47,357 bases of DNA from an uncultured Spirochaetales bacterium (GTDB taxonomy: Bacteria; Spirochaetota; Spirochaetia; Sphaerochaetales; Sphaerochaetaceae): positions 1 through 47,357 of the forward strand of contig CASFDA010000008.1 in assembly GCA_949293335.1 (NCBI GenBank). The letters run 5' to 3'. The position numbers and the translations under genes are program-made. Shown here piece by piece: positions 8,277 through 21,809 of this stretch. Position 1 is the stretch's first letter. Every line of letters begins with the position of its first letter. The notes beneath the pieces are model-generated. The model was not told the origin of the DNA, did not search any database, and saw only the letters and a list, made by a program, of their open reading frames with translations.

Positions 8277-8555
8277 ATGGCGACATTGTTAACCAACCTG
8301 CCTAAAGAGACGCTTGTTGCGCAGCTTCAGGATGGTGGTATCCTTCTTATTCTCGGCATGGGAACTGTATTCATATTTCTGGTCATACTCATCTACGCTA
8401 CCAAGCTTATGAGCAAGATCTGTATGAAGATGCAACCAAATACGCCGACAGCTACCACCAGAAGCAATCAGACAGCACCAAAGGCAACTGTAAAGAAGAG
8501 TGATGATGCAGCAGTAGCAGCGGCTATCGCGGCGGCATATGACAAAGAGAACTAA
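8277..8555 (+). CDS. oadG: Oxaloacetate decarboxylase (Na+ pump) gamma subunit
   Basis: The 92-residue protein has one membrane helix (about residues 20-43, GGILLILGMGTVFIFLVILIYATKLMSK) and a polar Thr/Ala/Lys-rich cytoplasmic tail. This is the standard OadG layout. OadG anchors the alpha subunit to the beta subunit and helps assembly. It is followed after 14 bases by oadA and then oadB, the usual gene set in a G-A-B order. The call depends heavily on this context because the sequence is short and low in complexity. Confidence 0.9.
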   Translation: MATLLTNLPKETLVAQLQDGGILLILGMGTVFIFLVILIYATKLMSKICMKMQPNTPTATTRSNQTAPKATVKKSDDAAVAAAIAAAYDKEN

Positions 8556-8569
8556 GGACGGAGAAAAAA

Positions 8570-10693
8570 ATGAGCAAGAAGAAAATTAACTTTATGTGTA
8601 CTGCTTTCCGTGATGGATTCCAGTCCGTTTACGGAGCACGAGTATTCACAAAGGATTTCATGCCTGCAGTAGCAGCCGCACGCGAAGCAGGAATCAAGCA
8701 TTTTGAAGCAGGTGGCGGTGCACGTTTCCAGGCACTTTACTTCTACACAAACGAAGATGCATTCGAAATGATGGATGAGTTCAGGAGAGTTGCAGGACCA
8801 GATGCAAACCTCCAGACTCTCGCAAGAGGAGTCAACGTTGTAGGTCTTGACTCCCAGCCAAGGGACATGATTGCCCTCCATGCAAAGCTTTTCAAGAAGC
8901 ACGGCATGACAACAATCAGGAACTTTGACGCACTCAATGATGTCAACAACCTCATTGATTCCGGAAAGGCCATCCATGATGCAGGTCTTCGCCATGAAGT
9001 CACAGTAACAATGATGAGCCTTCCAGAAGGTGTTGTAGGCGCACACGATCCTGATTTCTACGAGAAGATACTCCGCCAGATCCTCGATGCAGGAATTCCT
9101 TACGATTCTGTATGTTTCAAGGATGCATCAGGCACAAGCACACCTCACAACGTCTATGAGACGATCAAGAGGGCAAGGAAGCTTCTCGGACCGAACATGA
9201 ACATCACATTCCATTCGCACGAGACAGCTGGAGTATCAATCTACCAGTACATGAGCGCTATTGAGGCCGGTGCTACACAGGTTGACCTCTCTCTTGCCCC
9301 ATGCTCAGGTGGAACATGCCAGCCAGACGTGATCACAATGTGGCATGCACTCAGAGGAACTGACTACACACTCGATGTTGATATCGCAAAGGTACAGGAA
9401 GCAGAAAGAGTCTTCGAAGATTGCATGAAGGACTACTTCCTCCCACCAGAGGCAACAATGGTCAACCCGAACATCCCATTCTTCCCACTTCCGGGTGGAG
9501 CTCTTACAGCAAACACACAGATGCTCAGGGACAACGGCCTGATGGACAAGTATCCTCTCATCGTAGAGGCTATGGGCGAGACTGTTGCAAAGGGCGGTTT
9601 TGGAACAAGCGTAACACCTGTTTCCCAGTTCTATTTCCAGCAGGCATTCAACAATGTCATGTTCGGACCATGGAAGAAGTTCGCAGAGGGTTATGGAAAG
9701 ATGGTTCTTGGCTACTTCGGAAAGACACCAGTCGCTCCAGATCCGGAAGTTGTCAAGCTTGCAAGCGAGCAGCTCCACCTCGAGCCGACAACAGAGAAGT
9801 GTGTCGATATCAATGACAAGGATCCTAACAAGGGACGCGCTGCTGCAGAGAAGATGCTCAAGGACGCAGGTCTTCCGATCACAGACGAGAACGTATTCAT
9901 CGCTGCTGCATGTAAGGAGAAGGGTATCCTCTACCTCACAGGAGAGGCACATGTGAATGGCGTAAGAAAGATCAGCGAAGAGAAGAAGGAAGAGAAAAAG
10001 AAGAGCGGAAACGGCGAGTACACAGTAACTGTCAACGGTGTCAGCTATGGCGTCAAGCTCGAGAAGGACAGCGCTGTTGTCAACGGCACGAAGTATCCTC
10101 TTTCAATCGTTGATGGAATCAAGGCTCCAGCAGCAAAGACTGTAAAGAAGGTAGTAAAGAAGGCTGCCGGTGCAGAGGCAACAGAAGTTACAGCACCAAT
10201 GCCGGGACTCGTACTCCGCTTCGCAGTCAAGGAAGGCGCTGAGGTAAAGAAGAATGACCTCCTGATGGTCATGGAAGCTATGAAGATGGAGAATGAGATC
10301 TACGCTCCTTGCGATGGCGTGGTGGCAAGCATCTCAGTTGGCCAGGGCGATCAGCTCCAGGCAGGAGATCTCCTCATGACAATTTCCTCATCCGGAGAGG
10401 CTGTTGAGGTCGAGGAAGAGGTTGTCGAAGAGGCAGCAGCTCCAGTAGCAGAGGCCAGCGAGGATAAGGCACCAGCAGAGGGCGCAGAAGTCACAGCACC
10501 AATGCCGGGACTCGTACTCCGCTTTGCAGTCAAAGTCGGTGACAAGGTAAAGAAGAATGACCTTCTGATGGTCATGGAAGCTATGAAGATGGAGAACGAG
10601 ATCTACGCTCCTTGCGATGGAGAGATCAAGGAAATCTCCGTAAATCAGGGCGATCAGCTTCAGGCTGGCGATTTGCTGATGGTCATCGGCTGA
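8570..10693 (+). CDS. oadA: Oxaloacetate decarboxylase alpha subunit with two tandem biotinyl domains
   Basis: The 707-residue protein transfers CO2 from oxaloacetate to biotin and yields pyruvate. The carboxyltransferase TIM barrel starts with TAFRDGFQSVYGARV (residues 10-24), followed by VCFKDASGTSTPHNVYE and the metal-site THFHSHET-like segment ITFHSHETAG, then the PYC/OADA conserved domain to about residue 465. A charged linker and a small beta domain lead to two biotinyl domains. The target lysines lie in MEAMKMEN at Lys572 and Lys673. Family members are usually near 600 residues with one such domain, and the extra 100 residues are the duplicate. An Ala/Glu/Val-rich hinge joins the two. 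GGAG precedes the ATG. Confidence 0.95.
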   Translation: MSKKKINFMCTAFRDGFQSVYGARVFTKDFMPAVAAAREAGIKHFEAGGGARFQALYFYTNEDAFEMMDEFRRVAGPDANLQTLARGVNVVGLDSQPRDMIALHAKLFKKHGMTTIRNFDALNDVNNLIDSGKAIHDAGLRHEVTVTMMSLPEGVVGAHDPDFYEKILRQILDAGIPYDSVCFKDASGTSTPHNVYETIKRARKLLGPNMNITFHSHETAGVSIYQYMSAIEAGATQVDLSLAPCSGGTCQPDVITMWHALRGTDYTLDVDIAKVQEAERVFEDCMKDYFLPPEATMVNPNIPFFPLPGGALTANTQMLRDNGLMDKYPLIVEAMGETVAKGGFGTSVTPVSQFYFQQAFNNVMFGPWKKFAEGYGKMVLGYFGKTPVAPDPEVVKLASEQLHLEPTTEKCVDINDKDPNKGRAAAEKMLKDAGLPITDENVFIAAACKEKGILYLTGEAHVNGVRKISEEKKEEKKKSGNGEYTVTVNGVSYGVKLEKDSAVVNGTKYPLSIVDGIKAPAAKTVKKVVKKAAGAEATEVTAPMPGLVLRFAVKEGAEVKKNDLLMVMEAMKMENEIYAPCDGVVASISVGQGDQLQAGDLLMTISSSGEAVEVEEEVVEEAAAPVAEASEDKAPAEGAEVTAPMPGLVLRFAVKVGDKVKKNDLLMVMEAMKMENEIYAPCDGEIKEISVNQGDQLQAGDLLMVIG
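10184..10690 (+). repeat. Tandem duplication of the biotinyl-domain coding segment in oadA
   Basis: The unit beginning at 10184 recurs at 10487, an offset of 303 bases or exactly 101 codons. Long stretches around the biotin site (for example the codons for KKNDLL, then MVMEAMKMEN, then EIYAPCDG) are nearly identical at the nucleotide level, including synonymous positions. The linker between copies is not repeated. This points to a recent duplication or ongoing gene conversion. Confidence 0.9.
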
Positions 10694-10710: not shown

Positions 10711-11922
10711 ATGAACGCAATTATAGAAGGTTTTCGCAACCTGGCAATGACAACCGGAATCGCAGGATTCGCGGGTATTGCAGAGGATGGAAGCATCGGA
10801 AACCTTTTCATGATCCTCGTAGGGTTCGTACTACTCTATCTGGCAATCAAGAAAGGATTCGAGCCACTCCTCCTCATTCCAATCGGAATGGGATGTATTC
10901 TTTCGAACATCCCTCTGGCATATATTGCAGGAGTTGATCCATCGAACAATGCACCGGGATTCATCAAAGTTCTCTTTACAGGAATTGATCTCGGCTTGTT
11001 CCCTGTCCTCATCTTCATGGGTGTTGGAGCAATGACAGACTTCGGACCGCTTATCGCGAATCCGAAGACACTCCTTCTCGGAGCAGCAGCACAGCTTGGT
11101 ATCTTCACAGCACTGATCGGCGCTCTCGTACTGTCATTCATTCCAGGAATCAACTTCGACCTGGCAGTTGCAGGCAGTATCGGAATCATCGGAGGAGCAG
11201 ACGGACCTACAGCCATTTACGTGACCAGCAGGCTGGCCCCAGATTACCTCGGGTCAATTGCTGTTGCGGCTTACTCCTATATGGCTCTCGTTCCTATCAT
11301 CCAGCCACCGATCATGAAGCTTCTCACCACTGAGAAAGAGAGAAAGATCAAGATGGAGCAGCTCAGACCAGTATCAAAGCTCGAGAAGATCATCTTCCCT
11401 GTAATGGTACTGACACTCTGTGCAATACTTCTTCCTTCTGCATGTCCGCTCATCGGAGCACTCATGTTCGGTAACCTCGCACGTGAATGTGGAGTCATAA
11501 ACAGGCTCTCCGATACTATGCAGAACGCATTGATGAACATCGTAACGATCTTCCTTGGCCTCTCTGTAGGTTCAAAGATGGCTGCATCGAGCTTCCTCTC
11601 ACTTGAGACGATCGGCATCCTTCTCCTTGGAATGGTCGCATTCGGAATCGGAACTGCAGGCGGCGTTCTTCTCGCAAAGATCATGAACGCAGTGGATCCA
11701 AAGCACCCGATCAATCCGCTCATCGGATCAGCTGGAGTTTCCGCTGTTCCTATGGCTGCCCGTGTATCGAGCAAGGTAGGACAGGAAGCTGATCCGCAGA
11801 ACTTCCTTCTCATGCACGCCATGGGACCGAACGTGTCCGGAGTCATCGGATCTGCTGTTGCAGCAGGTGTCCTGATCTCGACAATACCAGACATGATGAA
11901 TGTAATTGCAGCTGCAATCTGA
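10711..11922 (+). CDS. oadB: Oxaloacetate decarboxylase (Na+ pump) beta subunit
   Basis: The 403-residue integral membrane protein decarboxylates carboxybiotin and couples this to Na+ export. It has about nine hydrophobic segments, and the conserved loop [20 protein letters not shown] contains the Asp implicated in Na+/proton transport in this family. C-terminal blocks [18 protein letters not shown] and [19 protein letters not shown] are also typical. It is 17 bases after oadA with TAGGAG before the ATG, and a terminator follows its stop. Closely related beta subunits serve methylmalonyl-CoA and glutaconyl-CoA decarboxylases; the adjacent OadA-type alpha subunit argues for oxaloacetate. Confidence 0.95.
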
Positions 11923-13444: not shown

Positions 13445-13477
13445 CTAATGAAATGACTAGTTTCAGGAGAGGTGACC

Positions 13478-16039
13478 TTGCCCATGCGATTTACTCTTAA
13501 CGGTAAAGAAATAACAACAGACAAGGAGAAGAAACTCCTCTCTTTCCTCAGGGATGACATGCACCTGATGGGAACTAAGGACGGGTGCTCAGAAGGTATC
13601 TGCGGCACCTGTACCGTAATAATAGACGGGAAAGCCAGAAAATCCTGCACAATTCCACTCTCGAAGGTGGAAGGAAAGAATGTCATAACCATTGAGGGAC
13701 TTACGGAAAAAGAAAAGGAAATCTACTCATATGCCTTCGGAAAGGCCGGAGCAGTCCAATGCGGTTTCTGCACGCCTGGGATGGTGATGTCTGCAAAAGC
13801 CCTGCTTGACGAGAACAATAATCCAAGTGAAGAAGAGATAAGGAAAGCGATCAGGGGAAATCTATGCAGGTGCACAGGCTATGAGAAGATAGCAAGGGGA
13901 ATTGAGCTCGCAGCAAAAATATTGAGAGGCGAATGTTCTCTGGAAGAAGAGAAAAAGGATGGTGCGATCGGAGACGATATCATAAGGCTCGATGCGACGG
14001 ACAAGGTTCTCGGAAGAGCACTATATGCAGATGACCTTCGTTTTGATGATATCGTGTATGTCTCTGCAATCAGAAGTCCATACCCCAAGGCCCTGATCAA
14101 GAAAATAGACACGAGCGGGATAGAGAGAGATGAACACCTTGTCGGAATAATCAGGAAAGCGGATGTCCCGTTCAATATGCATGGACATCTGACTGCCGAC
14201 TGGCCTGTCCTCTATGGAGAGGGGGATGTGACATCATACCTCGGAGATGCTTTGATACTCATTGCAGCAGACTCCGAAGAAGAGCTGGAGAGGTTGAAGA
14301 AGGAAGTCAGGATTGATGCGGAAAAACTTGAAGGAGTGTTTTCCGCAGAAGAGGCATTGAAAGATGAGAACATCGTCCACTTCTGGGAAAAGAGCAATCT
14401 CTACAGGGAAGAGAAAATCTCTCGTGGAGACGTCGACAAGGCCTTCAGCGATGCAGATCTGATAATCACAAGGCACTTCTCCACCCCAGTCACCGAGCAT
14501 GCGTTCATGGAACCAGAGTGCGCAGTAGCTATCCCAGATGGTGATGGAGTACACCTTTTTACGTCCGGACAGAGCGTATATGACGAGAGAAGAGAATGTG
14601 CGCGGATGCTGAAACTTCCTGAAAAAAAAGTACGGGTCACATCAATGACTGTAGGAGGAGGTTTCGGCGGGAAGGAAGACATGTCTGTCCAGCATCACGC
14701 AGCATTGGCCTCCTACATTCTCAAAAGGAAAGTGAAGGTTTCCCTCTCAAGGTCAGAAAGCCTGCTCGTGCATCCAAAGAGGCATCCGATGGAATTGGAA
14801 ATTTCCCTCGCCCTAAGCAAAGGAGGGAAAATCCTTGGGCTCAAGGAAGATATCCTCACAGACACAGGAGCATACGCATCGCTTGGAGGACCTGTACTCC
14901 AGAGAGCATGCACCCATGCAGGCGGCCCATATGATTTCCAGTCGATATATGTGCGTGGAAGGGCTGTGTACACAAACAACATACCAAACGGCGCTTTCCG
15001 CGGATTTGGCGTAACACAGTCATGTTTTGCAATCGAATCAATCATCGATGAAGCGGCAGAAGAACTTGGAATTGATCCATTTGACATCAGGATGATGAAT
15101 GTGGTGCATCCAGGAGCCTCCCTTCCAAACGGCCAGATAGCAGGAAAAGACACAGCTATTGAAGAATGCCTGAAAAAAATAGAGAAATACTACAGAAGTG
15201 CAAAATACAAAGGACTTGCAATCGGATTCAAGAATGCAGGAATAGGAATGGGGGTACCCGATGTAGGAAGGGCACTGCTGAAGGCGGAGGATGGAAAGAT
15301 CCATATCCGTACGAGCGCAGCATGCATGGGGCAAGGGCTGAAGACAATGGCGCTACAGGTTGCAATTACAGCAACAGGGCTTGATAGATCCCTATTTGTT
15401 GTCGATGAGCCAGATACTCTCTTCACCCCTGACTCAGGAACATCGACAGCGAGCAGACAGACAGCTTTCACAGGAGAAGCTGTGAGGATCGCAGCAGAGA
15501 AACTCAGATCATACCTTGAAGGAAAGGATCTATCTATGATTGAAGGAATGGAATTCTATGGAGAATTCGGGCCAAAGACAGATCCTCTCGGATCAAATAA
15601 AGAGCACCCCGTCAGCCATCTTGCATACTCCTACTCTGCCCAGCTTGCAATTCTCTCCGATGAAGGAAGAATAGAGAAAATCGTGGCCGTTTCAGATGCT
15701 GGAACTGTGATAAACCCAATCTCCATCTCTGGACAGATGGAAGGTGGAATTGCAACAGGAATGGGTTTTGCGCTCACAGAGAACTTCAGGGAAAAGGATG
15801 GCTATCCTATAGACAAATTCGGTACCCTCGGCCTTCTCAGAAGTACGGACATGCCAGAAATCATTGCGGAGATGGTACATGGAAAAGGAAAAGGTCCATC
15901 AACATATGGGGCAAAGGGAATCGGAGAGCTTGCAGCAATCCCAACAGCCCCCGCCATAAGGAACGCATACTTCCATTTTGACGGGAAAAAGAGATATTCT
16001 CTTCCCCTTGAAGATACACCATACAGCAGAAAAAAGTGA
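13478..16039 (+). CDS. Xanthine dehydrogenase-family molybdenum hydroxylase, 2Fe-2S and Mo domains fused
   Basis: The 853-residue protein joins two subunits. Residues 1-150 form the iron-sulfur part: plant-type ferredoxin Cys in DGCSEGICGTC...SC, then the second cluster in QCGFCTPGM...LCRCTGYE. From about residue 165 to the end is the molybdopterin-binding part, with GGGFGGKED, GAFRGFGVTQ, and the active-site Glu in AKGIGELAAIP. There is no FAD domain and no FAD-subunit gene nearby. This fused layout occurs in the predicted selenium-dependent xanthine dehydrogenases and in some aldehyde oxidoreductases, so the substrate is open. The start is uncertain: TTG 13478 has GAGG 5 bases upstream, while GTG 13472 and ATG 13484 are alternatives. 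Confidence 0.85.
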   Translation: MPMRFTLNGKEITTDKEKKLLSFLRDDMHLMGTKDGCSEGICGTCTVIIDGKARKSCTIPLSKVEGKNVITIEGLTEKEKEIYSYAFGKAGAVQCGFCTPGMVMSAKALLDENNNPSEEEIRKAIRGNLCRCTGYEKIARGIELAAKILRGECSLEEEKKDGAIGDDIIRLDATDKVLGRALYADDLRFDDIVYVSAIRSPYPKALIKKIDTSGIERDEHLVGIIRKADVPFNMHGHLTADWPVLYGEGDVTSYLGDALILIAADSEEELERLKKEVRIDAEKLEGVFSAEEALKDENIVHFWEKSNLYREEKISRGDVDKAFSDADLIITRHFSTPVTEHAFMEPECAVAIPDGDGVHLFTSGQSVYDERRECARMLKLPEKKVRVTSMTVGGGFGGKEDMSVQHHAALASYILKRKVKVSLSRSESLLVHPKRHPMELEISLALSKGGKILGLKEDILTDTGAYASLGGPVLQRACTHAGGPYDFQSIYVRGRAVYTNNIPNGAFRGFGVTQSCFAIESIIDEAAEELGIDPFDIRMMNVVHPGASLPNGQIAGKDTAIEECLKKIEKYYRSAKYKGLAIGFKNAGIGMGVPDVGRALLKAEDGKIHIRTSAACMGQGLKTMALQVAITATGLDRSLFVVDEPDTLFTPDSGTSTASRQTAFTGEAVRIAAEKLRSYLEGKDLSMIEGMEFYGEFGPKTDPLGSNKEHPVSHLAYSYSAQLAILSDEGRIEKIVAVSDAGTVINPISISGQMEGGIATGMGFALTENFREKDGYPIDKFGTLGLLRSTDMPEIIAEMVHGKGKGPSTYGAKGIGELAAIPTAPAIRNAYFHFDGKKRYSLPLEDTPYSRKK

Positions 16040-16063: not shown

Positions 16064-18025
16064 TCATGTCTGACTTTCTTCGTATACTGCATAGAGTGTA
16101 GTATGTGAATAAATTTCAGCACTAAAGTCAAATGGTATTTCTGTCACTTCACTTTTAGACCAGCAGATAAAACCTTCTCCTTTTGGTGTGGGTGCTTCCA
16201 CTAAGCTTCCTTCCCTGATTGTCTTTACTGTCTTTTCCTCTCCGTCGACGAACGTAACATCAACATCCCAGACTGCATATATGCTTGTGTCTTCATAAAT
16301 GACATGCCCATTGATATTGCCAATACTCTCTCCATTCTGCTCGAACGCCCAATGGCTGAATCTTTTTCCATCCTCCTCAGGATTTGAAATCGCAGGGATA
16401 GGCTCTGCATACTTCACGTACAAGGGTCCTATCGGAGGAAGTACATTATAGAATGTTACACGATACGTTTTTTTCTCCCAGATGCCATACAAATCGAGAG
16501 AACTTGTCACGGGAGATGAAAGATCATATTCAGTCGATCCATCGAAATCTTCACTCAAATACTTGAACATATAACCTGTTGTCTCTGGATAACTGAGAGT
16601 AGGCAAAGTCTTATTTTCTTCGACAAAGAAATATTCAACACGAGCGATATCATTGGGATCTTCCCAGTATATATTTACATAATACCCGTATACGGCGACA
16701 AGGGTAATGTCTTCAGTTACGCGGAAATTAAAATCGAATTCACCATAGTCTTTACCGCTTTCTCTCCAGTACATGAAAGTACGTCCATTACTATCTGGAA
16801 CATTCGAGACATATTTTTTATCAATCAAACTGCCTTGAACGTATACTTCGGTTTCAATATCCCCATCATTGTTATAAGTAACGGTGATGGTAGCAGCATG
16901 ATTCCAAACGGCATAGAGTACGATGTCTTTCTCTACTGCAGTTGATTCGAAATCGAACTTTCTTGAGATATCTCCATCCTCGATCTCCGACCAATACAGG
17001 AATTCCTTGAATTCATCCCCTTTGACTTCAGGAATTTCAGAAATAAACTCACCTTTGTTATAAACATCAGTCAGGAGTATCTCTCCTTCGCTGATGAAGG
17101 TAACGGTATATTGATCTTCGTAGACCGCATATAGATCAAAAGGTGCATAGTGCTTTATAGAGAAATCAAATGGCTCTCCACCAGGTACACTGCTCCAATG
17201 ACTGAACTTTCTATCAGAGTCTATCGGATCTAAAGGAGTAGTCATCATCTCACCTGAGAAAAGCGGATTGGTATAAGTAAACTCTCCTTCATGTATCGTT
17301 ACATCAAATTGCCATATCGCATAGAGATCTATGTCTCTTTCCATTGCACCAGTGAAAGGTACAGACTCTCTGCCATTCTGCGCTGTGCTCCAGTATTGGA
17401 ATGTGCTGTTCTCATCATCAGATAATATTGGGAGATTTGGGAATTCCCCGAACTCCACTTCCATTGTCTGATATAGTTTCCCTGGATTGGAATACAGATT
17501 GACAGTACAAGAATCTCCTACATAGAAAGCATATAGGAAAGTGTCTCTTGTTATCGGTTCTGTAAAATTGAATTTTTCTCCAGTGTTGGGATCAAGAGTC
17601 CAATATACAAACGTATAGTTTTCATCAGGGCTCACCGGATCATTCGGTTTTACAGAAGAAGGAATGGGTTCTCCATAAGTCACATAGATCCACTCTGATT
17701 TATAATCATTCTTTTCATCTATGAATTGAACTATATATTCCTCATATTCATAGACAAGATAAAGAGTCACATCCTCTGTGATAGGGTCTTCGTATGGACT
17801 CCCACCCTCATTCAAACTCCAGTAATACTCTGGAGCAATTCCCTCTTTATCCACATATATGCCAAGAGAAGTCACGGTTCGCCCTTCAGGTACTTCCATT
17901 TCACGAAATAGTTCACCATCGACCATAAAACGAACTACATGTGTCGGCGTGTGGATTTCGCATGAAAACGCAAAGAGGAGAGCAACAGACAATATAAGCA
18001 GTAAAATCAGATTTTTTTTTGCCAT
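16064..18025 (-). CDS. Lipoprotein made of nine InlB B-type repeats
   Basis: The 653-residue protein has a lipoprotein signal peptide ending LLFAFSC (lipid on Cys22). The rest is a chain of about nine repeats of 60-75 residues, each with an F-x-Y-W centre and a (L/I)YA(V/I)(W/Y) end: LYLVY, LYAFY, LYAIW, LYAVY, LYAVW, LVAVY, LYGIW, IYAVW, LYAVY. These are InlB B/Listeria-Bacteroides repeats, which form ubiquitin-like or mucin-binding-like folds in surface proteins. The last repeat ends only four residues before the C-terminus, so there is no other domain. A GAGGTAG site lies just before the ATG. A monocistronic surface lipoprotein, possibly adhesive, is the likely role. Confidence 0.85.
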   Translation of the reverse strand: MAKKNLILLLILSVALLFAFSCEIHTPTHVVRFMVDGELFREMEVPEGRTVTSLGIYVDKEGIAPEYYWSLNEGGSPYEDPITEDVTLYLVYEYEEYIVQFIDEKNDYKSEWIYVTYGEPIPSSVKPNDPVSPDENYTFVYWTLDPNTGEKFNFTEPITRDTFLYAFYVGDSCTVNLYSNPGKLYQTMEVEFGEFPNLPILSDDENSTFQYWSTAQNGRESVPFTGAMERDIDLYAIWQFDVTIHEGEFTYTNPLFSGEMMTTPLDPIDSDRKFSHWSSVPGGEPFDFSIKHYAPFDLYAVYEDQYTVTFISEGEILLTDVYNKGEFISEIPEVKGDEFKEFLYWSEIEDGDISRKFDFESTAVEKDIVLYAVWNHAATITVTYNNDGDIETEVYVQGSLIDKKYVSNVPDSNGRTFMYWRESGKDYGEFDFNFRVTEDITLVAVYGYYVNIYWEDPNDIARVEYFFVEENKTLPTLSYPETTGYMFKYLSEDFDGSTEYDLSSPVTSSLDLYGIWEKKTYRVTFYNVLPPIGPLYVKYAEPIPAISNPEEDGKRFSHWAFEQNGESIGNINGHVIYEDTSIYAVWDVDVTFVDGEEKTVKTIREGSLVEAPTPKGEGFICWSKSEVTEIPFDFSAEIYSHTTLYAVYEESQT

Positions 18026-19942: not shown

Positions 19943-21772
19943 TCACTTTGCGCTCTTGAGTGCGCTCTCGAGAGTATCGAGCATGTCGCTGAGCTCGTGA
20001 GGAAGGTGTTTACCGAACTTCGGATAATGATTTGTCCTGATGTCCTCAACTTCCTTGAGCCATCCGTCGACATCGACCTTGAGAAGCTCTGCCATTGTCT
20101 CGTCAGTAACACCCTCAGGGCGATCAATAGCATCGAGAGTAGGCATGATTCCGATCGGAGTCTCGACTGTCTTTGCTGTTCCATCGCAGCACTCGAATAC
20201 CCACTTGAGTACGCGGCTGTTGTCGCCGTATCCCGGCCAGAGGAAGTGACCTTCTGCATCCTTCCTGAACCAGTTGACGTAGAAGATCTTTGGCAGGACG
20301 CTCTGGTCTGGAGCAGCTGCGCCTACATCGATCCAGTGCTGGAAATAGTCTCCCATGTTGTAGCCACAGAATGGAAGCATAGCAAATGGGTCACGTCTGA
20401 TTGTTCCAGCCTTGACATCGAGTGTTGCAGCTGTAACCTCAGAACCTACGATAGATCCAAGGAATACACCGTGGTTCCAGTTCTTTGACATATGCACAAG
20501 TGGGATTGTCTTAGGTCTTCTTCCACCGAAGAGGATAGCTGAGATTGGAACTCCCTGTGGATCCTCCCATTCAGGAGCGATGCATGGGCACTGGCAAGCA
20601 GGTGCTGTGAACCTTGAATTTGGATGTGCAGCTGGCTTCTGTTCCTTGTTGCCCTTGTCCTGGATCCATTCCTTTCCTGTCCAGTCGATGAGCTTTCCAG
20701 GAGCATCATAGCCAATTCCTTCCCACCAAACGTCCTTGTCCTCTGTGAGAGCAACGTTTGTGAAGATTGTGTTCTTGCTTGCAGCCATCAGAGCGTTATA
20801 GTTGCTCTGTTCGCTTGTTCCTGGAGCAACGCCAAAGAAGCCTGCCTCAGGGTTGATTGCATAAAGCCTTCCATCCTTTCCTGGCTTCATCCATGCGATG
20901 TCATCACCGATGGTCTCAACCTTCCAGCCTGGGATAGTAGGAATAAGCATAGCAAGGTTTGTCTTTCCACATGCTGATGGGAATGCACCTGTAACATACT
21001 TGCTCTTTCCTTCTGGGTTTGTGACCTTGAGGATAAGCATGTGCTCTGCAAGCCAGCCCTCATCGCGTGCGAGGACAGATGCGATTCTCAGAGCAAGGCA
21101 CTTCTTTCCAAGGAGAGCGTTTCCACCGTATCCAGAACCATAGGACCAGATCTCTCTTGTCTCTGGGAACTGTGAGATGTACTTGTGCTCCATCGGAGCG
21201 CATGGCCAGAGACCATTGTCGGACTCACCCTCTGCAAGTGGCTTACCTACAGAATGGAGACATGGAACGAAATAGCCGTCTGTTCCGAGCAGGTCGAGAA
21301 CCTTGACACCTACACGTGTCATGATCATCATGTTGCAGACAACATATGCAGAATCTGTGATCTCTACACCGATCTTGGAAATCGGGGATCCGAGAGGACC
21401 CATGGAGAACGGGATAACATACATTGTCCTTCCCTTCATACAACCCTTGTAAAGAGCTGTCATAGTCTTCTTAAGCTCAACCGGATCAATCCAGTTATTT
21501 GTAGGACCAGCATCCTCTTCCTTTTCAGAAGCAATGAATGTCCTCTTCTCTACACGTGCTACGTCTGACGGATCAGAGCGGAAAAGTACGCTTCCTGGCT
21601 TCTTTTCTGGATTGAGCCTGATAGCAAGACCAGAATTAACACAAAGGTCAATAAGCTCCTTGTACTGGGATTCTGAACCGTCTGCGACCACAACTTCATC
21701 TGGCTGGCAAAGGGCCTTGATTTCCTCTACCCAGCTGACAAGTTTCGCATGCTTGAGATCGTTGATTGTCAT
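19943..21772 (-). CDS. pckG: Phosphoenolpyruvate carboxykinase (GTP)
   Basis: The 609-residue protein is a clear GTP-type PEP carboxykinase, interconverting oxaloacetate plus GTP with PEP, CO2 and GDP. The active-site P-loop [12 protein letters not shown] is intact with its reactive Cys. [10 protein letters not shown] is the second kinase motif, and NWFRKD...[10 protein letters not shown] is in the C-terminal lobe. In anaerobes without a full TCA cycle it often runs toward oxaloacetate. I chose ATG 21772, since AAGGAG lies about 8 bases upstream; an in-frame ATG at 21799 has no such site. It has its own promoter and terminator. Confidence 0.95.
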
Positions 21773-21809
21773 CTGAACTCTCCTTATTGGTATCAGCACT
21801 AATGCTGTT

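Follow-up and report, generated by a model that had tools for sequence, protein, structure and literature searches.

Among Na+-translocating oxaloacetate decarboxylases, the OadABG pump of Klebsiella, Salmonella and Vibrio is the obvious point of comparison for the locus studied here, and the available part of the structure paper on this pump describes a single BCCP domain at the C terminus of the alpha subunit (PMC7274780). Tandem biotin carriers are known from the OadA of Geobacter bemidjiensis, Gbem_1454, which has two biotin attachment domains and for which beta and gamma subunits were not found; in the accessible portion of that work, its authors state that pump-associated homologues have only one biotin domain (PMC2996986). 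Two carriers with Ala/Pro-rich linkers also serve a single Na+ pump complex, the glutaconyl-CoA decarboxylase of Clostridium symbiosum, as the subunits GcdC1 and GcdC2 (PMC7145394, available excerpt), and in 2-oxo acid dehydrogenases each E2 chain bears between one and three lipoyl domains (PMC6270654, available excerpt). For tandem biotinyl domains in pump-linked OadAs, our search of the open-access literature found no paper. Why swinging-arm enzymes should have multiple arms is an old question, inherited from pyruvate dehydrogenase.

The window (the whole stretch of 47,357 nucleotides analysed here) lies on contig C8 of the 1.92-Mb, 35-contig genome of a gut spirochaete; its closest relatives with a name are uncultured Spirochaetales, Candidatus Ornithospirochaeta among them. 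Its pump genes form one three-gene operon in the order oadG-oadA-oadB, with the following features (window positions):

8277..8555, plus strand: oadG, gamma subunit, 92 aa (Pfam OAD_gamma, 67.8 bits)
8570..10693, plus strand: oadA, alpha subunit, 707 aa, with carboxyltransferase, PYC_OADA and two biotinyl domains (open reading frame, Pfam, biotinyl HMM, AlphaFold)
9485..10048, plus strand: PYC_OADA conserved carboxylase (association) domain, residues 306-493 (Pfam, 101.7 bits; cut-off 27)
10112..10171, plus strand: flexible linker ahead of biotinyl domain 1, residues 515-534 (pLDDT <50)
10181..10384, plus strand: biotinyl domain 1, residues 538-605 (Pfam Biotin_lipoyl, biotinyl HMM, model)
10181..10318, plus strand: acceptor half of domain 1, -34 to +11 around Lys572, apparently homogenised (codon tests)
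10283..10285, plus strand: Lys572, predicted biotin acceptor, in AMKME (sequence)
10385..10483, plus strand: inter-domain linker, Glu/Ala-rich, predicted disordered at residues 610-636 (sequence, pLDDT <50)
10484..10690, plus strand: biotinyl domain 2, residues 639-707 (Pfam Biotin_lipoyl, biotinyl HMM, model)
10484..10621, plus strand: acceptor half of domain 2, -34 to +11 around Lys673, apparently homogenised (codon tests)
10586..10588, plus strand: Lys673, predicted biotin acceptor, in AMKME (sequence)
10711..11922, plus strand: oadB, Na+-translocating beta subunit, 403 aa (TIGR01109, 539.5 bits, cut-off 190.6; Pfam OAD_beta, 524.3 bits)

Elsewhere in the window, a GTP-type PEP carboxykinase (19943-21799, minus strand), another enzyme of the PEP-pyruvate-oxaloacetate node, lies about 8 kb from the OAD operon. 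A molybdenum hydroxylase of 855 aa (13472-16039, plus strand) has its 2Fe-2S and molybdopterin-binding domains fused in a single chain, and a 653-aa protein with three Listeria-Bacteroides repeats (16064-18025, minus strand) is likely a surface protein.

A preliminary description of this DNA had reported two complete biotinyl domains with acceptor lysines 572 and 673, 101 codons apart, and this is confirmed by the open reading frame, by two Pfam Biotin_lipoyl matches and by a custom biotinyl HMM, which also gives two matches, both with MKME. The chain combines the traits of an OAD-type alpha subunit: a carboxyltransferase match to Pfam HMGL-like (30.0, cut-off 29), PYC_OADA, an operon with oadB and oadG, and a C-terminal MKM biotinyl domain, here present twice. 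In its gene set, its order of carboxyltransferase, association domain and BCCP, its OadB family and its OAD_gamma, the locus resembles the described OadABG pump, but its alpha subunit has two carrier domains instead of one and scores below the TIGR01108 oadA equivalog cut-off (360.1 bits against 756.5), so that it is the operon and homology which point to oxaloacetate as its substrate; on these grounds the window enzyme presumably decarboxylates oxaloacetate and pumps Na+. Single-domain relatives also fall under this cut-off (L129, 296.6 bits; L197, 277.3 bits), and a two-domain OadA from another family, f3, clears it (L206, 828.9 bits).

In an AlphaFold model of the window OadA, built from 37 sequences and with a mean pLDDT of 83.6, the biotinyl domains are two distinct beta-barrels, for the most part modelled with confidence (pLDDT about 77-97 per ten-residue block), each acceptor lysine sitting at the hairpin that joins two strands. 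Foldseek matched the model to pyruvate carboxylases, to the transcarboxylase 5S subunit and to the V. cholerae OadA carboxyltransferase (2nx9, TMt 0.86). The model thus places several acceptor domains with flexible linkers on one chain, which resembles the E2 of pyruvate dehydrogenase by analogy only: multi-lipoyl E2p, as the accessible text of two papers describes it, also has one to three swinging-arm domains and flexible linkers (PMC8421416, PMC6270654), but it uses a lipoyl cofactor in another enzyme and has no membrane pump. Gbem_1454 shares the two biotin domains and differs in its pump subunits, since window-type genes adjoin oadB and oadG, whereas GcdC1 and GcdC2, in the part of the source available, are separate subunits and the window carriers are tandem domains on the carboxyltransferase chain.

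Within the window's genus, two domains are the rule and nothing out of the ordinary. OadA matches were found in 46 of 48 genomes (the other two had none at the search threshold), and of the 40 intact genes 30 encode two domains and 10 encode three, the three-copy genes in this table being recognised by a second overlapping match; six genomes have split or partial OadA genes, several of which terminate within the array. The preliminary description had held that OadA normally has one such domain and had proposed a survey of homologues, which returns one, two or three domains and not uniformly two. Its generalization agrees with the pump literature and with most other spirochaete families seen, but gives way in the window's genus (two or three) and among the OadAs of family f3, which we take to be probably Treponema: these belong to a different, canonical subfamily, about 30% identical to the window's, and have two domains in all 27 genes read. 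Among 151 distinct genes, from all loci fetched up to that point, 54 full-length genes have one domain, 70 have two and 14 three, with six having none and seven truncated; for the closest 111 (core identity >77.5%) the full-length figures are 28 one, 59 two, 14 three and three none, besides seven truncated. Further two-domain genes come from other spirochaete families (L180, L181, L230, L231) and on a contig labelled Kiritimatiellae (L107). The acceptor motif is MKME in 235 of the 240 domains of the 151 distinct genes and MK in all 240, although extraction itself required MK.

Nearly all of these sequences are metagenome assemblies, in which near-identical repeats may collapse or break contigs, so three-copy genes are possibly under-counted and some three-to-two changes possibly false. 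The 35-contig state of the window genome, together with relatives' contigs that end in or just before the array (L096, L100, L121, L136, L241-L245), might invite the explanation that the window's second domain was duplicated in assembly. Its two copies differ at 39 of 207 nucleotides, and the same architecture recurs in 30 of the 40 intact genus genes and in the one-contig genome L122, which has two domains; given this presence across many independent genomes, we ruled out an assembly artefact, whose probability is negligible. The contigs of L241-L245 start or stop within the biotinyl array, and the first 820 bases of one of them (L242, G009 contig 7) hold one partial and two full domains, which means that arrays of three or more may get broken by short-read assembly. 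In L172 the OadA frame breaks before the biotinyl domain, which resumes in another frame, through a frameshift or a sequencing error.

OadB lies in the fetched stretch for 69 of 71 two-copy genes and for 14 of 14 three-copy genes, and both OadB and OadG do so for 45 of 57 single-domain genes. Judged from their sequences, window-type genes are exceptions to the published one-domain statement for pump-associated OadAs. They combine known themes (tandem carriers, pump linkage and varying number) in a little-described variant of the OAD pump.

Gene trees indicate that domain number, whether one, two or three, has changed repeatedly across the family. In a codon tree built on the carboxyltransferase core (117 rows), the full-length genes require at least 20 changes among the one-, two-, three- and zero-domain states; when only one-, two- and three-domain rows are used and truncated genes are taken as they stand, the count comes to 22 (mean after shuffling, 41.8), and the three-domain state by itself then requires at least nine that are forced by starred branches. 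For 167 genes on a wider protein tree, 24 copy-number changes are needed, and 14 between single and multiple; assembly collapse of near-identical repeats could inflate such counts. All 14 three-copy genes look, in sequence, like duplications of the first domain with a new linker joined from the two neighbouring ones. Their first and middle domains have a mean amino acid identity of 97% in both halves, against 85% and 58% in the two halves for first and last, and in a domain tree of mostly weak branches (36 of 184 starred) all 14 middle domains fall with the first domain of their own gene or within one small cluster together with it. In each of the 14 genes, the final 24 nt of the first linker resemble the sequence ahead of domain 1 more than they do the second linker's end, though narrowly in two (15 against 14 in L014, 16 against 13 in L009), and the start of the first linker usually matches that of the second. 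This is the pattern that duplication of domain 1 through recombination of its two flanking linkers would leave.

Changes this frequent, for which no correlate was seen among those looked for, would also be expected of a neutral array, in which linkers recombine readily, both domains are biotinylated, one arm is enough and the pump runs at the same rate whatever the copy number. The many single-domain relatives that retain the oadGAB set are in keeping with such neutrality, and pyruvate dehydrogenase functions with its E2 shortened to one lipoyl domain. Yet at least two domains are present in 40 of 40 intact genus genes and in 27 of 27 f3 genes, with the acceptor motif intact in the copies read, and such lasting retention suggests a benefit, although it is no proof of one. 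Neutrality is a real possibility, but on balance we lean against it.

Over 69 codons, the two domains of the window gene are identical at 58 of 69 residues and at 168 of 207 nucleotides, the longest uninterrupted match being 32 nt, and they use the same codon at 37 of 52 identical residues against 27.2 expected from the codon usage of oadA itself (P about 0.002). The likeness at the DNA level that had first drawn attention to the gene holds for the acceptor half, with the same codon at 30 of 37 positions (for same-residue positions elsewhere, 45 of 113), and fails for the C-terminal half, where there is no excess (7 of 15 against 16 of 33); it is limited to the first two thirds of the biotinyl domain. 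In the one-contig genome L122 taken alone, the same codon is found at 28 of 36 positions in the acceptor half and at 58 of 125 elsewhere.

Across the family, we compared pairs of two-copy genes at codons whose residue is shared by all four domains, scoring them as orthologous (domain 1 matches 1 and domain 2 matches 2), concerted (the two copies of each gene match but the genes differ) or crossed. For 22 disjoint pairs whose core identity is 0.80-0.93, of 670 scored in the acceptor half (-34 to +11), 69 were concerted (10.3%), 42 orthologous and 22 crossed, against 776 of 18,360 (4.2%) concerted at random same-residue positions of the core and 94 of 1,838 (5.1%) at other same-residue positions within the domains. 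The acceptor half exceeded the core control in 17 of the 22 pairs (Wilcoxon p 5e-5); a Fisher test on the disjoint set assumes that position pairs are independent, though they are not. The C-terminal half of the same pairs (8 concerted, 26 orthologous and 3 crossed of 248) has no excess over the core control, and the contrast between halves is partly post hoc, as the +11 boundary was picked after the per-codon counts had been seen. All 288 pairs with an identity of 0.80-0.97 give 13.6% concerted in the acceptor half and 6.4% in the C-terminal half against 4.9% in the control, but they share genes, and only the disjoint set is a fair test.

The alternative that the likeness reflects codon bias together with purifying selection acting to conserve the motif, without any recombination from copy to copy, gains from the strong constraint on these residues and from the clear codon preferences of oadA, which already account for 27.2 of 52 same codons. 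It does not explain why homologous acceptor-half positions are concerted more often than those of the two controls, nor why the C-terminal half of the same domains lacks any excess in disjoint pairs, and it is very improbable; pure codon bias was ruled out by the core and same-domain controls. By the codon evidence, then, acceptor halves are homogenised between copies beyond two codon-usage controls and C-terminal halves are not, an effect that is real but partial. The two domains of f3 OadAs mostly group by position at the protein level, and protein-level ranks had suggested that f3 escapes homogenisation, an idea dropped since the codon test shows an acceptor-half excess there as well (40 of 283 concerted against 7.9% in the control; 12 of 13 disjoint pairs, p 9e-4). 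Homogenisation of acceptor halves may thus be general to tandem biotinyl domains, or the excess may partly reflect some other constraint.

The C-terminal halves have position-specific residues, with a mean mutual information of 0.19 bit against 0.06 in the N-terminal half (52 genes) and the strongest position-marking sites at +14, +15, +17 and +32 relative to the lysine. Such residues could mark a division of labour, in which the domains dock differently (each on its own carboxyltransferase of the dimer, for example, or on its own OadB protomer) or a different biotin enzyme is served by the second, and the Geobacter authors, in the accessible part of their paper, suggest that a two-domain OadA may cooperate with GcdA (PMC2996986). 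However, conversion tracts merely ending there would also yield position-specific residues. In the window genome, the biotin/lipoate ligase family has a single match and PYC_OADA a single gene, and the only other biotin enzyme found there, acetyl-CoA carboxylase, has its own carrier (acc cluster on contig C15), so that the second arm is without an obvious client except the pump; a foreign client is therefore disfavoured in this genome, and a division of labour in either form seems unlikely.

We consider it likely that the window gene encodes a Na+-translocating OAD-type alpha subunit with an expandable biotin array, here of two carriers, whose acceptor halves are kept alike by intragenic recombination. 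The carboxyltransferase would pass CO2 from oxaloacetate to the biotin of either domain, both lysines presumably being biotinylated and used, and either arm would then swing through its disordered linker to OadB, where decarboxylation would drive Na+ export. In the pump model, as many as three alpha dimers work with one beta3-gamma3 hexamer (PMC7274780, available part), and two arms per alpha chain would amount to four carriers per alpha dimer. Faster transfer of carboxybiotin to OadB by two arms is a hypothesis that fits the operon, the flexible linkers and the parallel with pyruvate dehydrogenase. The array would lengthen and shorten through recombination, three-copy genes stemming from domain-1 duplication by linker-linker joins; acceptor halves would be kept alike by conversion, or by a 2-3-2 cycle in which the last domain ends up chimeric, while C-terminal halves would retain their position-specific residues. 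Four OadA-type genes (L173, L174 and L175 of genus g22 and L195 of family f20) have a C-terminal biotinyl-like fold that lacks the MKM acceptor motif, and no oadB or oadG was detectable in the fetched stretches around them; their genomes have other biotinyl domains and a ligase elsewhere, and the four genes are consistent with the carrier being retained for the pump. A more elaborate proposal, that one to three arms (perhaps more) tune throughput as an adjustable carrier dose set by linker recombination, with acceptor halves converted and C-terminal halves specialised for docking, is tentative and somewhat doubtful.

Tandem-domain genes of this kind qualify the published claim of a single biotin domain in pump-associated OadAs, and they provide an example of partial-domain homogenisation within a bacterial gene. 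Since close relatives have one, two or three arms while pump and operon stay the same, the influence of arm number would be directly measurable, in an enzyme that yields a Na+ gradient.
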